A DNA stretch of 64,000 nucleotides from Anaerolineales bacterium. GTDB taxonomy: Bacteria > Chloroflexota > Anaerolineae > Aggregatilineales > UBA2796. Position numbers and translations under genes: made by a program. Positions 4,567 to 39,466 of this stretch are shown piece after piece. The notes beneath the pieces are model-generated. The model was not told where the DNA came from. It saw only the letters and a program-made list of their open reading frames with translations, and ran no database searches. Numbering within the stretch: position 1 is the stretch's first letter; each line of letters begins with the position of its first letter. The stretch is taken from positions 1,054,001 through 1,118,000 of the forward strand of contig JABTTZ010000002.1 of the NCBI GenBank assembly GCA_015075625.1, in the 5' to 3' direction.

Positions 4567-7500
4567 CTAATCCTGTGTCGCCATCATACGCTGTATCTTG
4601 GCATAGGCAAGCATTGTCTCTTGGTAAATAGACCGTCGCCCGCGCATGTCCATGGGGTCTTCCAACGCCCGCATAATGGGCGCGGTGTAGCGCTCCCCCT
4701 CCTGTGCAGCTGCCTCCAAACACGCCAAGACCATGCGTTTTGTCGTCCGTCGGGCGCGGGTCATAAGGAACCCGCGCAAGGTGGGGAGATTTTCGATGAC
4801 GCGCTCTGCCGCCTCCTGCCCACCTTTGCCCAAGCTGGTGAAGGCGATCATCTGGATGTAGACACTAGGCGATTCGAGCAAATCGCGGATCGCGGCGCCA
4901 GAGTTTAACAGGGCATTATCATGGGCGGTGGCAAGGTACTGAAAGAGGGGGTTGTTTGTCCGCAGTGTCTCCTCATTCCAATCGTTGATGTCCATCTGGC
5001 GAAATCGCCCGAACACATCAGCCGTATGGCGGGCGAAGGTTTCTGGCGACTCGCTGTACAGGCGCTCAAACCGCGCCGTGATAAGCGTCGTGAGGGCGTT
5101 TAGCCGTTCGGCGGCGTTTGGTGGGCGGTTACGATTGGCATAGGGATTGGAACTCCTGACCCAACCACCAGCGAGGATGATAAATCGGTAGGTTAAGTAG
5201 TTCAAAAAGACTTCATCACGCCGTTCGTCGGCAAGGGTATAAATCGCCTCATCGGGTTGGATTAGAAAGGTTTCTAAGAAAGAGCGAGTCTCTACGGGAT
5301 AGCGTTTATACAGGGTATTGGCTGTCTTGGCGGTAAGCGTCCACTGTCTAAATGTGTGGGCAGAAGGTGTCAGAAGGGCAAGACGTTCCAAAAACCGCTG
5401 CCGGTTGTCATCAGCAGCATGGGCGAGCGCCTGATTCCATTCGGAAGCGTAGAGAGGTGACTGTGTTGCCATACGGTATTGCCAAAGAAGGGTGTCATCA
5501 CCGAGGCGCTTGACGGCATCATCGAGTCCCTTAACGGGGAGCGAAAACGCCGCATGGTTAATCAAATAGGGCATTGCTGCCTTGCCATAGCGCTTAACCA
5601 CTGTGAGCAGCGCCTCTCTATGTTGAACATTCCATTCTTCTTCAGGATGGATGCGTTCTAGCGCGGCGCCGATTTGATCGGGCGGTATGGTCTGCTGTAG
5701 CAGACCATGTACCTGCCCACCCCAGGTGATTTTTTGGATAGCGATGAGCGCCTTGTTGATCGCATCAATCATGGGCTGATCGGCGTGTTTTTCCGCCTCA
5801 GCCAGAAGTTTGGGGTAGGGTTTGTTTTGTTCTCGTCGCCACCAATTGCGCCCAGTGGGAAGATGAGCGCGGATAAACTCACCCAAATGCAGCCGATCCC
5901 GCTGGTAAATGATTACTGCCAGATCATCGGGAAGGACAAACCACGTCATAGTGCGCAAGGTGAGGGCGCGGGCAAGGGTATCATTGTCGCTGGTGTCCGC
6001 GAGGTGTTTCCGAAGATCGGCAACCCAAGCGGGTTGTGTCGTGATCTGTCCATAGAGGCGAGTAAAGAGGGCATCACGCCCTTCTTTTTCCAAGCGCGGA
6101 AGGAGATCACGGATTACGTATTCATCTCGCCCGATGTAGCGGGCAATGAATGAGTCGAAGAATTCTAACCCCCGTTCCATCAAGGCAGGCACCCAAAGAC
6201 GCCCTAGCGCGGCGAATTCTGTTGGCTGCCGGCGTGCCATTGCCGAGAGTTCTCGCAGCAGTTCGCCGCGTTCAATGGGGAGGTCAAGCAGGGCGCGGAG
6301 GCGGCCCGCCGTGACCGTGTTCATCACCCGCTCCAGATAGGGGAGAACGGCTTCCCCATATTTTTCCAAAAAACGGCGCATGATGGCTGGATTCGCTTTT
6401 TGATAGTCTTTAGAATGCCACTCGTTTAGAACCGTTACGATCTGATCAGGCGGAATATCCTCGGCTAGAATGCGCTCCATCTGCGCTTCCCAAAGGCTGT
6501 GATTTGCCGCTTGCCGAAAGATGCGCTGAACCATCAACGGATCATCCTCTGTCTTTTCAATCATCGCAAGAAGTTTTGGGTAGGTTGCCGCTTTGCCCCC
6601 GCGATCTATATGCCGCGAGATGAAATCAAGGGCTACCTCTCGATTCAGCCTATAGAGTGCCACAGCTTGAGCGTCAGAGAGTTTGGTGTAGGGAATTTCT
6701 AAGCGAGCTAATTCGCTTTCAAGTTCGGCTTCGGCGGGCTTACGGGCAATGAGTTCGTCTATTTCTGCCCCCCATTCTTTCTTTGTATGGCTGTGCCGAA
6801 AGAGTTTGTTCCACAGATTATCCTTTCCATCTGCTTTGCAGCGCTCAAGAAGGGTTTGCCGTAGGGACATTAATTCGGCAATGTGCGGCTGATGTAAGAG
6901 GCTAAAATAATAATCATAAAAAGGAAAATAGGTCATCAGGAGGGCAGGGGCATGGTCATAAAGATAGCCTAACCATGCCGCTGCTGTATATTGTGTCATT
7001 TGCCACCCTAGCCTATTTTGAATGGCGTCCATCACCTCAGCCGGATTTTCCTTTGCCGTAAGTGCCTGAGCAATCCGTTTGTGGGCAAATTCTTTCGCGC
7101 CAGAAAGTGTATTTTTCTCCGCCCATTCCTTCAGATGATGTCCTAGCCCCTGCAACTGCTTAACAATCCCCTCAGCAAGCGCTGGAAAATGTGGTGGTCG
7201 CCACGCCGTAAGTTTTGAGGCAAGGGTGTCATCAGCGTTCTTCTTTATAAGATCGTTTGCTTTTGCATCCCATTCCGTTTGGGAGGCATAGGTCTTGAAC
7301 AACGCTTGTTGCAGGTGTTCATCCCCTTGTTTTTCAGCGGCGGCATACAAATTTGGGTAAGGAAACGATCCATCCTTTATATGGGCAGTATTATGAGAAC
7401 GACTAATCTGAGACAGGATCAATTTGCTAAACAGCGTCGGGTTGCGGGTATAGAGGGCGGTGGTATGGTCATCGCTAAGATGAAAATTGAAATTGGCGAG

Positions 7501-35645: not shown

Positions 35646-35899
35646 TTATCTTTTAATAATAGGGTTTTTCGGCTGTGCTGCAATCCTAAAGTGCGTTTTG
35701 GGGAGGGAAATGGAACAATCTTGTGATCATCCTTACATCTTTTTTGTAGCCTTATAACATTTACCACAGCACCTCGTTCGTCAAACCTACTGAAACCAAC
35801 CACATTCTTAACGACATCGGATTATAATGGAAGCGATTCGGAAAAGTCCGATGATATAGACTGTTAGTTTTTCAACCAGCTTTGAAAGGGCATTTTCGT
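35646..35899. other. Upstream region of the BON-like gene
   Basis: No gene is seen. The sequence is AT-rich relative to the window. It contains TATAAT (35823-35828) and an ATCGGA/TCCGAT inverted repeat (35816-35821 and 35847-35852) that could be regulatory. Confidence 0.35.
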
Positions 35900-36322
35900 A
35901 TGGAGCCGACAACAGATCGCCCGGATGTGGATATTGAGGAAGATATCAAACAAATCATCAATACCTTCACCCCACTTAAAACCTCAAAACCTTATTTTAC
36001 CCTTCAGGTCTCCAATGGCGTTGTCACAGTGCAAGGGAATGTTCGCAACCCCCAAGCGCGGCGTGTTCTGCTGGACAATGCGCCACGCATTACGGGCGTG
36101 CAAAAGGTAGATGCCAGCGCCTTTTTTGATGATGAACAGGTGCGCTATGATGTGGGTGGCGTGCTGCCGCCGGGTGTTCATGCCAGCGTCCTTTTCGGAG
36201 CGGTGGCGCTCACCGGAAAACTGCCCGAACATGCCACCGCCGAGGCGATTATCACCCTTGTTTCGCAGGTGGCTGGTGTGCGCCGCGTCGGGGTTGATTT
36301 TGGCGAGGCAAAAACGGGTTAA
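35900..36322 (+). CDS. BON-like domain protein
   Basis: A 140-residue protein. Residues 14-80 resemble the BON fold (ITNG-like V-x-NGVVTVQG-V-x-NPQARRVLLDNA, then GVQKVD), found in bacterial osmotic-stress and membrane-attachment proteins. A second, weaker half (FGAVALTGKLPEHATAEAI...GVRRV) looks like another BON-type repeat. There is no signal peptide, so it is probably cytosolic. The ATG at 35900 follows GAAAGGG. It is a single gene between repeat elements. Confidence 0.65.
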   Translation: MEPTTDRPDVDIEEDIKQIINTFTPLKTSKPYFTLQVSNGVVTVQGNVRNPQARRVLLDNAPRITGVQKVDASAFFDDEQVRYDVGGVLPPGVHASVLFGAVALTGKLPEHATAEAIITLVSQVAGVRRVGVDFGEAKTG

Positions 36323-38028: not shown

Positions 38029-38113
38029 GGAGAGGTCGCATAGTGGTTTAGTGCGCTCGCCTGGAACGCGAGTTGGGGTAACACCCTCGTGGGTTCGAAT
38101 CCCACCCTCTCCG
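38029..38113 (+). tRNA. tRNA-Ser (anticodon GGA)
   Basis: The 85-base gene folds as a class II tRNA. The acceptor stem GGAGAGG pairs with CCTCTCC, and the discriminator base is G. The anticodon stem is CTCGC/GCGAG with loop CTGGAAC, so the anticodon is GGA, which reads UCC/UCU serine codons. A long variable arm (TTGGGGTAACACCCTC) and the T-loop GGGTTCGAATCCC are present. The 3' CCA is not encoded. Confidence 0.96.
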
Positions 38114-38120
38114 CAGCTTT

Positions 38121-38263: not shown

Positions 38264-39466
38264 ATGAAAACCCTCACCTCCCCTCTCACCTCAGTCGATT
38301 TGCTCTGGGATACTCTTGGTTTTTTACCTGTCCCCGGCGGCAGCGCTCCGATTGGTCTAGAGGAAAAATCCCTTGAACGCTTTTTGAAGGCAAATAGCCC
38401 TGACTGGCACAGTTATTACAGCCGAGAAGCGCCTTTTCATCAGGTGACTATCGCACCCTTCCACCTTATGCGTTATGCCGTCACGAACGGACACTATGCC
38501 CTTTTTATGGCGCAGGACGGTTATACCAACCCCGACCTCTGGACGCCTGATGGATGGGCTTGGCTGCTGCGTACAAAGCGGACGCAGCCGCTCCATTGGA
38601 ACACCCCTCAATTTGCTGGCGAAGATCGCCCAGTGGTTGGCGTCAGTTGGTATGAGGCAACGGCATTTGCCCGGTGGGCGTCGCTCCAAACCGGACACAA
38701 TCTGCGCTTACCCAGTGAGGTCGAATGGGAATGGGCAGCGCGGGGTGAAAACACACGCTCGTTTTACCCCTGGGGTGGCGCATGGGATGCCGCAAAACTG
38801 AACAGCGGCTATAGCGACGAGACACATCCAACCATTGGCACGACCACCCCTGTGGGGATGTTTAGTCCGGCGGGGGATGCCCCTTTGGGGCATGGCGAGA
38901 TGTTGGGGCAAGTTTTCGAATGGATGAATTCTGCCTTCCGCCCTTACCCCTATGACGCTCACGATGGGCGGGAAGATCGCTATGCCCCAGAGATGCGCGT
39001 TCGGCGCGGAGGGAGCTGGCTGGATGGCAAATTTGCCCACCGTGTGACAACGCGCTACTACTTCCCGCAGCATTATTCCGATAAAACAGATGGCTTTCGC
39101 TTAGCGGCAGGCGGCGACGCGCTCCCCCTTCCGCCTCGTCCCCCCTACGATTTGGTCGTCTATGGGCGGACAACCTTCTGTCCCGATTTGCTCCACACCA
39201 TCCGCTGGCTGCACGCCTGGAACGTCCCCTATCGCCAACTTCAACTTGATCGTGATGAGGAAGTCGCCCTCCGTCTTGATGCGTGGTTGGGGGCGCGCAC
39301 TATCCCCACGCTGGTTGTTGCGGCATGGGGCGATGTTCTGCCCATCACCCCTCCTACCGGTGTCGATTTCTCCCACCTACGGAACACAGATCGTGGGGCG
39401 ATGCTCCATGAGCCAGACGAATCAACCCTTCGTGCCTTTCTCGTGCGGCACGGCTTTTTAACTTAG
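38264..39466 (+). CDS. Formylglycine-generating-enzyme-fold protein fused to a glutaredoxin-like domain
   Basis: A 400-residue protein. Residues about 18-283 show the FGE/SUMF1 (EgtB-like) fold: FHLMRYAVTNGHYALF, VVGVSWYEATAFARW, RLPSEVEWEWAARG and VRRGGSW. Where formylglycine-generating enzymes have two active cysteines after GSW, this protein reads LDGKFAHRVTTR, so those cysteines are missing. Residues about 296-375 form a thioredoxin/glutaredoxin-like module (VVYGRTTFCPDLL with C306, and TIPTLVV with a cis-Pro). It has a single Cys rather than CxxC. The ATG at 38264 is chosen; a GTG 18 bases upstream is possible. The substrate is unknown. Confidence 0.8.
   Translation: MKTLTSPLTSVDLLWDTLGFLPVPGGSAPIGLEEKSLERFLKANSPDWHSYYSREAPFHQVTIAPFHLMRYAVTNGHYALFMAQDGYTNPDLWTPDGWAWLLRTKRTQPLHWNTPQFAGEDRPVVGVSWYEATAFARWASLQTGHNLRLPSEVEWEWAARGENTRSFYPWGGAWDAAKLNSGYSDETHPTIGTTTPVGMFSPAGDAPLGHGEMLGQVFEWMNSAFRPYPYDAHDGREDRYAPEMRVRRGGSWLDGKFAHRVTTRYYFPQHYSDKTDGFRLAAGGDALPLPPRPPYDLVVYGRTTFCPDLLHTIRWLHAWNVPYRQLQLDRDEEVALRLDAWLGARTIPTLVVAAWGDVLPITPPTGVDFSHLRNTDRGAMLHEPDESTLRAFLVRHGFLT

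Follow-up and report, generated by a model that had tools for sequence, protein, structure and literature searches.

The SUMF1/EgtB/PvdO superfamily (PF03781) comprises the closest described relatives of the protein reported here, whose N-terminal domain has the same fold and sequence signature. Within this superfamily the copper of formylglycine-generating enzymes (FGE) is held by a pair of cysteines, C336 and C341 in the human enzyme, five apart after an RGGS(F/W) motif. EgtB has an N-terminal DinB domain with three iron-binding histidines, and N414, W415, D416 and R420 are its substrate residues. The C-terminal half is related to glutaredoxins, NrdH and mycoredoxins (PF00462; 1h75, 2lqo), with which it has in common the thioredoxin/glutaredoxin (Grx) fold, a (V/I)PT cis-Pro motif and an N-terminal active-site cysteine. 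Bacterial glutaredoxins with selenocysteine (Sec) have been described as well, and those listed in two papers are of the UxxC type (PMC13188914; PMC1088965).

The gene analysed here lies in a window of 64,000 nucleotides from an Anaerolineales bacterium, by which we mean the whole stretch of DNA that was studied. It is a single unbroken open reading frame, running from an ATG at 38264 to a stop codon ending at 39466, and comprises the following features:

38264–39466, forward strand: whole gene, 400 amino acids, FGE-fold domain plus one-Cys glutaredoxin-fold domain (open reading frame and translation; full-length homologues)
38327–39106, forward strand: FGE-sulfatase (C-lectin-like) domain, residues 22–281 (PF03781, E 4.5e-48; AF2 model)
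39005–39064, forward strand: RGGSW-LDGKFAHRVTTRYY segment at the place of the FGE copper-binding Cys pair, both Cys missing (sequence, motif count)
39107–39148, forward strand: short Pro-rich linker, about residues 282–295 (alignment A1)
39149–39457, forward strand: glutaredoxin-fold domain, residues about 296–398, with a C-terminal DRG(S/A/T)M(L/M)HE signature (PF00462, family profile, AF2 model)
39179–39181, forward strand: codon of C306, the sole cysteine of the protein (FCPDL)

A preliminary description of this DNA had proposed an FGE fold without its catalytic cysteines, fused to a one-Cys glutaredoxin-like domain, and both halves of that proposal are borne out within one reading frame. 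Pfam places PF03781 at residues 22–281 (E 4.5e-48). PF00462 matches residues 298–352 with 22.3 bits in the context of the whole protein, just below the cut-off of 22.9, and with 25.5 bits when the C-terminal piece is searched alone. With a profile made exclusively of 36 stand-alone Grx rows the fused protein scores 99.4 bits (E 6.6e-30); the highest score among 1000 versions in which the C-terminus had been shuffled is 2.6 bits. Only about 20 residues precede the FGE domain, and no signal peptide was seen on visual inspection of the fused protein. The linker is free of gaps in all seven homologues of alignment A1. An AF2 model of the entire chain has a pLDDT of 89.9 and a pTM of 0.91, the latter suggesting a fixed arrangement of the two predicted domains.

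Following RGGSW the fused protein reads LDGKFAHR, with no cysteine at either position of the FGE pair, and neither cysteine is found in any of the seven fused rows. The usual copper-cysteine reaction is therefore impossible, as had been stated at the outset. Their absence, which had been presented as remarkable, turned out to be commonplace: in alignment A3 the motif can be read in 30 FGE-only relatives (one more being unreadable), none of which has the pair, and the pair is likewise missing from all 11 FGE domains of the host genome whose motif is readable (four more being unreadable). Judged by these alignments, absence of the cysteines is the rule among the relatives and not the exception. 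A true FGE was rejected for lack of the Cys pair, though the PF03781 fold is present. The host genome encodes at least 16 domains of the FGE fold, besides 12 matches to DinB_2; an EgtB-like DinB-FGE protein was not seen in it, and no listed DinB_2 and FGE places overlap.

Among solved structures, EgtB (4x8b) is the closest to the modelled FGE domain (VIA Z 29.6, rmsd 2.1 over 235 residues), followed by OvsA, CalU17, ToxD, PorK, PvdO and FGE itself, the FGE structures having a VIA Z of 24–25. A literature search for CalU17 gave no paper. The fold matches also include Mtd and T. denticola variable protein 1, and an origin from a diversity-generating retroelement was considered on account of this shared fold; however, the FGE domain does not form the end of the protein here. 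The preliminary description had recommended inspecting the pocket for an EgtB-like His triad. This search came out negative, since Pfam finds no DinB domain in the fused protein and the EgtB substrate residues N414, W415, D416 and R420 align, in a gap-free stretch, to Y265, Y266, F267 and Y271. In contrast to EgtB, the fused protein thus lacks the iron-binding DinB domain and has the substrate residues replaced, and unlike the 55 FGE-only loci examined, in which no more than 39 residues follow the match, it carries a C-terminal Grx domain. With the NCBIfam profile of EgtB (TIGR03440) it scores 137.3 bits against a cut-off of 360, and L084 scores 148.5 bits. Both values fall among those of eight FGE-only relatives used as a control (94.8–155.0 bits); the apparent closeness to EgtB is thus a general trait of FGE-only relatives, and nothing closer is shown for the fused protein. 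The PvdO profile (NF051459) gives 57.2 bits against a cut-off of 500. Identity with EgtB, SenA, OvoA or PvdO was rejected, every score lying far under the NCBIfam cut-off. Since the Cys pair, the DinB domain with its histidines and the EgtB substrate residues are all absent, neither the FGE nor the EgtB chemistry fits. Common to the fused rows, EgtB and OvsA is the motif MLGxVWEW. An invariant found only in the fused rows is Q216, which replaces the asparagine of GNVWEW (Asn in 29 of 31 others); further invariant residues that set the fused proteins apart from FGE-only relatives are H210, D254-G255-K256, Y265 and Y271.

The C-terminal domain belongs to a Grx family of the Chloroflexota whose members mostly stand alone. 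At E 1e-8 it was found in at least 65 of the 396 genomes of a class sample, with only partial matches among the four weakest. Of these loci, 29 (L055–L083) were read residue by residue and the rest by open-frame length. In a phylum sample, which partly contains the same genomes, at least 19 of 400 matched, and several of the weak matches are ordinary CxxC redoxins. As the first-look step scored up to 12 candidates per genome in the class sample and up to 11 in the phylum sample, misses are possible in both counts. The family is marked by the signature Y-x-R-x-x-x-C-P-x-(V/L), SVPT and DRGSM(I/L)TE. In alignment A4, comprising 43 rows with L060 and L174–L177 left out, the active-site position is Cys or Sec and the cis-Pro is kept in all 43 rows, whereas the resolving position of a CxxC centre is Cys in none; a dithiol glutaredoxin was rejected on this count. 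A separate AF2 model of the Grx domain is of moderate pLDDT (83.5, the best of five models ranging from 49.9 to 83.5) and superimposes on NrdH (1h75) with a VIA Z of 9.8 and an rmsd of 1.8 over 75 residues, which places the predicted fold in the glutaredoxin/NrdH/mycoredoxin type. In contrast to these described proteins, the domain has Cys-x-x-Leu instead of CxxC, an extra strand in the model and about 30 added residues with the DRGSM(L/I)(H/T)E signature. In a tree based on 111 columns, in which many forks remain open, the seven fused Grx domains cluster together (100/100). This cluster branches with stand-alone genes from two other families within the phylum (97/93) rather than with the stand-alone paralogues present in the host family.

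A clue to the role of C306 comes from two stand-alone relatives of one genus, L065 (genome G176, L065:1528) and L071 (genome G132, L071:1144), in which the codon of the active-site residue is an in-frame TGA. The translations read YSRATF-[TGA]-PDV and YSRAAF-[TGA]-PDV, respectively, and the family sequence continues on both sides. The TGA form occurs in two of the three genomes of the bacterial family to which this genus belongs, the third being without a match. SelB scores above its cut-off in both genomes. A tRNA-Sec is clear in G132 (70.5 bits), while the best match in G176 reaches 50.6 bits, similar to the extra matches of G132. About 20 nucleotides after the TGA a GGGCCC-GGA-GGGUCC hairpin can pair, and the SECIS-like regions fold no better than shuffled sequences (z −1.41 and −0.14). 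Given the in-frame TGA and the presence of SelB, the position is probably Sec, and these relatives would represent a UPDV-type selenoprotein. If present, selenocysteine would identify the position as redox-catalytic. Because the aligned position in these relatives is TGA, and likely Sec, C306 may be regarded as a redox catalyst, and a role as redox residue is strongly suggested. Of the preliminary proposal that the protein uses its Grx cysteine for a redox or sulfur-related task, the redox part gains support from the invariance of the position and from the TGA codons, and the sulfur part found no specific support. The in-frame TGA at a Grx active site recalls the Sec-containing glutaredoxins of bacteria, but those known are listed as UxxC proteins (PMC13188914; PMC1088965), whereas the relatives described here have U-P-D-V without a resolving cysteine. 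A literature search for a glutaredoxin selenoprotein of the Chloroflexi gave no paper.

The proposed search for the same fusion in other genomes was rewarding. The full-length fusion is intact in 7 of the 11 genomes of the host family (G000, G001, G003, G004, G006, G007 and G010), which span all five genera. The homologues from other genomes are 60–66% identical to the protein encoded at 38264–39466 over the full length, so that an assembly artefact does not account for the fusion. C306 is invariant in all seven fused rows. A stand-alone Grx paralogue is also present in all 11 genomes of the family. In G005 the two halves of the fusion are located on separate contigs, and the genome has an extra degraded piece of a fused-type Grx in addition to the split copy; what is left in G008 is a decayed Grx domain of the fused type, interrupted by two stops. 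These decayed copies (L182/L183) demonstrate that the fused gene can be lost. No fused match was found in G002 or G009. A scan of genome_contigs kept 80 of 125 confirmed loci, of which seven encode the fused protein (one cut at the contig end); they appear to belong to genomes of the family set, for example Anaerolinea sp. CH2 and Chloroflexi bacterium CFX4. Among 55 of the remaining 73 loci no other fusion was seen, at most 39 residues following the FGE match. The searches made revealed no fusion outside the host family. Viral contigs and phages, searched with the Grx domain, gave nothing, and of the 330 plasmid records matched by the whole protein none covered 80% of the query. Among the papers listed by a literature search for the domain pair or the Grx domain, none deals with an FGE-Grx fusion. 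The fusion is real and conserved, in the searches made it is restricted to one bacterial family, and it brings together domains of known kinds in a new way.

The surroundings of the gene are not conserved. Situated just upstream is a tRNA-Ser (gga) at 38029–38114, and downstream follow genes for a NAD kinase and of the RecN/SMC type. Across eight loci no gene other than the fused one is shared by more than two, and an operon or neighbour logic was rejected, the best recurrence being a BON-domain gene at two of the eight loci. In the window a BON-domain protein is encoded at 35882–36319, about 2 kb upstream, and in L088 the gene of a relative immediately follows the fused gene. The stand-alone Grx adjoins a gene for an Amidase_3 protein (N-acetylmuramoyl-L-alanine amidase) in 13 of 20 loci, and for two of these 13 the amidase was checked with Pfam; an example is L184:7612–8835 beside 7002–7334. 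A profile search for the counterpart of a Rosetta-stone arrangement detected no FGE gene near the stand-alone Grx in 25 loci (20 + 5).

The reading that we favour, with a rough probability of 0.45, is that of a putative cytosolic one-thiol oxidoreductase with an FGE-fold recognition module on a short linker. The Grx-fold domain would supply C306 as nucleophile, which could attack a disulfide, an S-thiolated cysteine or a peroxide of a client. As the protein contains no second cysteine, the mixed disulfide or sulfenate formed on C306 would have to be resolved by an outside thiol. The FGE-fold domain would most likely bind the client or partner, which the short linker of constant length would keep beside C306. 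Several observations count against such an oxidoreductase: among eight loci no conserved neighbour of the fused gene points to a client, the SECIS-like regions fold no better than shuffles and G176 showed no clear tRNA-Sec, the Sec-bearing relatives are stand-alone proteins that do not lie close to the fused clade in the tree, and the fused gene is decayed or was not found in 3 of the 11 genomes of the family. PvdO, ToxD and CalU17, which have neither metal site, may be enzymes, and this analogy may weaken the case for a recognition role of the FGE domain. It is conceivable, with perhaps half the likelihood of the favoured reading, that the FGE domain is still an enzyme of the PvdO/ToxD kind, using neither Cu-Cys nor DinB-His iron, and that the Grx domain regenerates it or provides its pocket with a thiol. 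The fused-specific invariants Q216, H210, D254-G255-K256, Y265 and Y271, the presence of PvdO, ToxD and CalU17 among the close folds and the short, fixed linker would suit such an enzyme, but a recognisable set of metal ligands is missing and the EgtB scores (137.3 and 148.5 bits) are no nearer than those of FGE-only relatives (94.8–155.0 bits). A composite active site, in which C306 reaches into the FGE pocket and so provides a branch of the superfamily that lacks metal ligands of its own with redox catalysis by a fused thiol, appears improbable.

Somewhat less doubtful than such a composite site is a redox switch, in which oxidation or S-thiolation of C306 would alter binding by the C-lectin-like FGE fold, rendering the protein a sensor or regulator and not a catalyst. 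This fits the single cysteine without a resolving partner, and also the FGE domains of the relatives, which, judged by open-frame lengths, are usually C-terminal in longer proteins, as would be expected of a binding module; yet the probable Sec in stand-alone relatives suits catalysis better than sensing, which leaves the switch unlikely. We give very little weight to an EgtB/OvsA-like C–S or C–Se synthase that borrows the iron of a separate DinB protein while the Grx domain presents sulfur. EgtB is the best structural match (Z 29.6, 235 residues), MLGxVWEW is shared with EgtB and OvsA, and 12 DinB_2 matches are available in the genome, but the EgtB substrate residues are not retained, the EgtB score is no better than that of other FGE-only relatives and none of the 12 DinB_2 places adjoins the fused gene. 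Equally faint is the chance of a functionless accidental fusion. The decayed Grx remnant in G008, the second piece in G005 and the missing matches in G002 and G009 could be taken in its favour; conservation of both domains makes it unlikely, since the fused protein is retained at full length with 60–66% identity in all five genera, with the active-site Cys and the signature invariant in seven of seven.

Many FGE-fold proteins are without both known chemistries and without an assigned role, and none of the 30 sampled relatives has kept the Cys pair. In the Grx family, Cys and TGA are exchanged at a CxxV/CxxL centre, as would suit a redox catalyst that has no resolving cysteine; the selenoglutaredoxins named in the cited sources are, by contrast, UxxC proteins (PMC13188914; PMC1088965). 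If a composite site were to exist after all, it would give the FGE fold a third route to oxidation or the transfer of thiols, beside Cu-Cys and DinB-iron. By linking an FGE domain of this kind to an identifiable redox residue, C306, the fusion provides a handle on what the FGE domain recognises.
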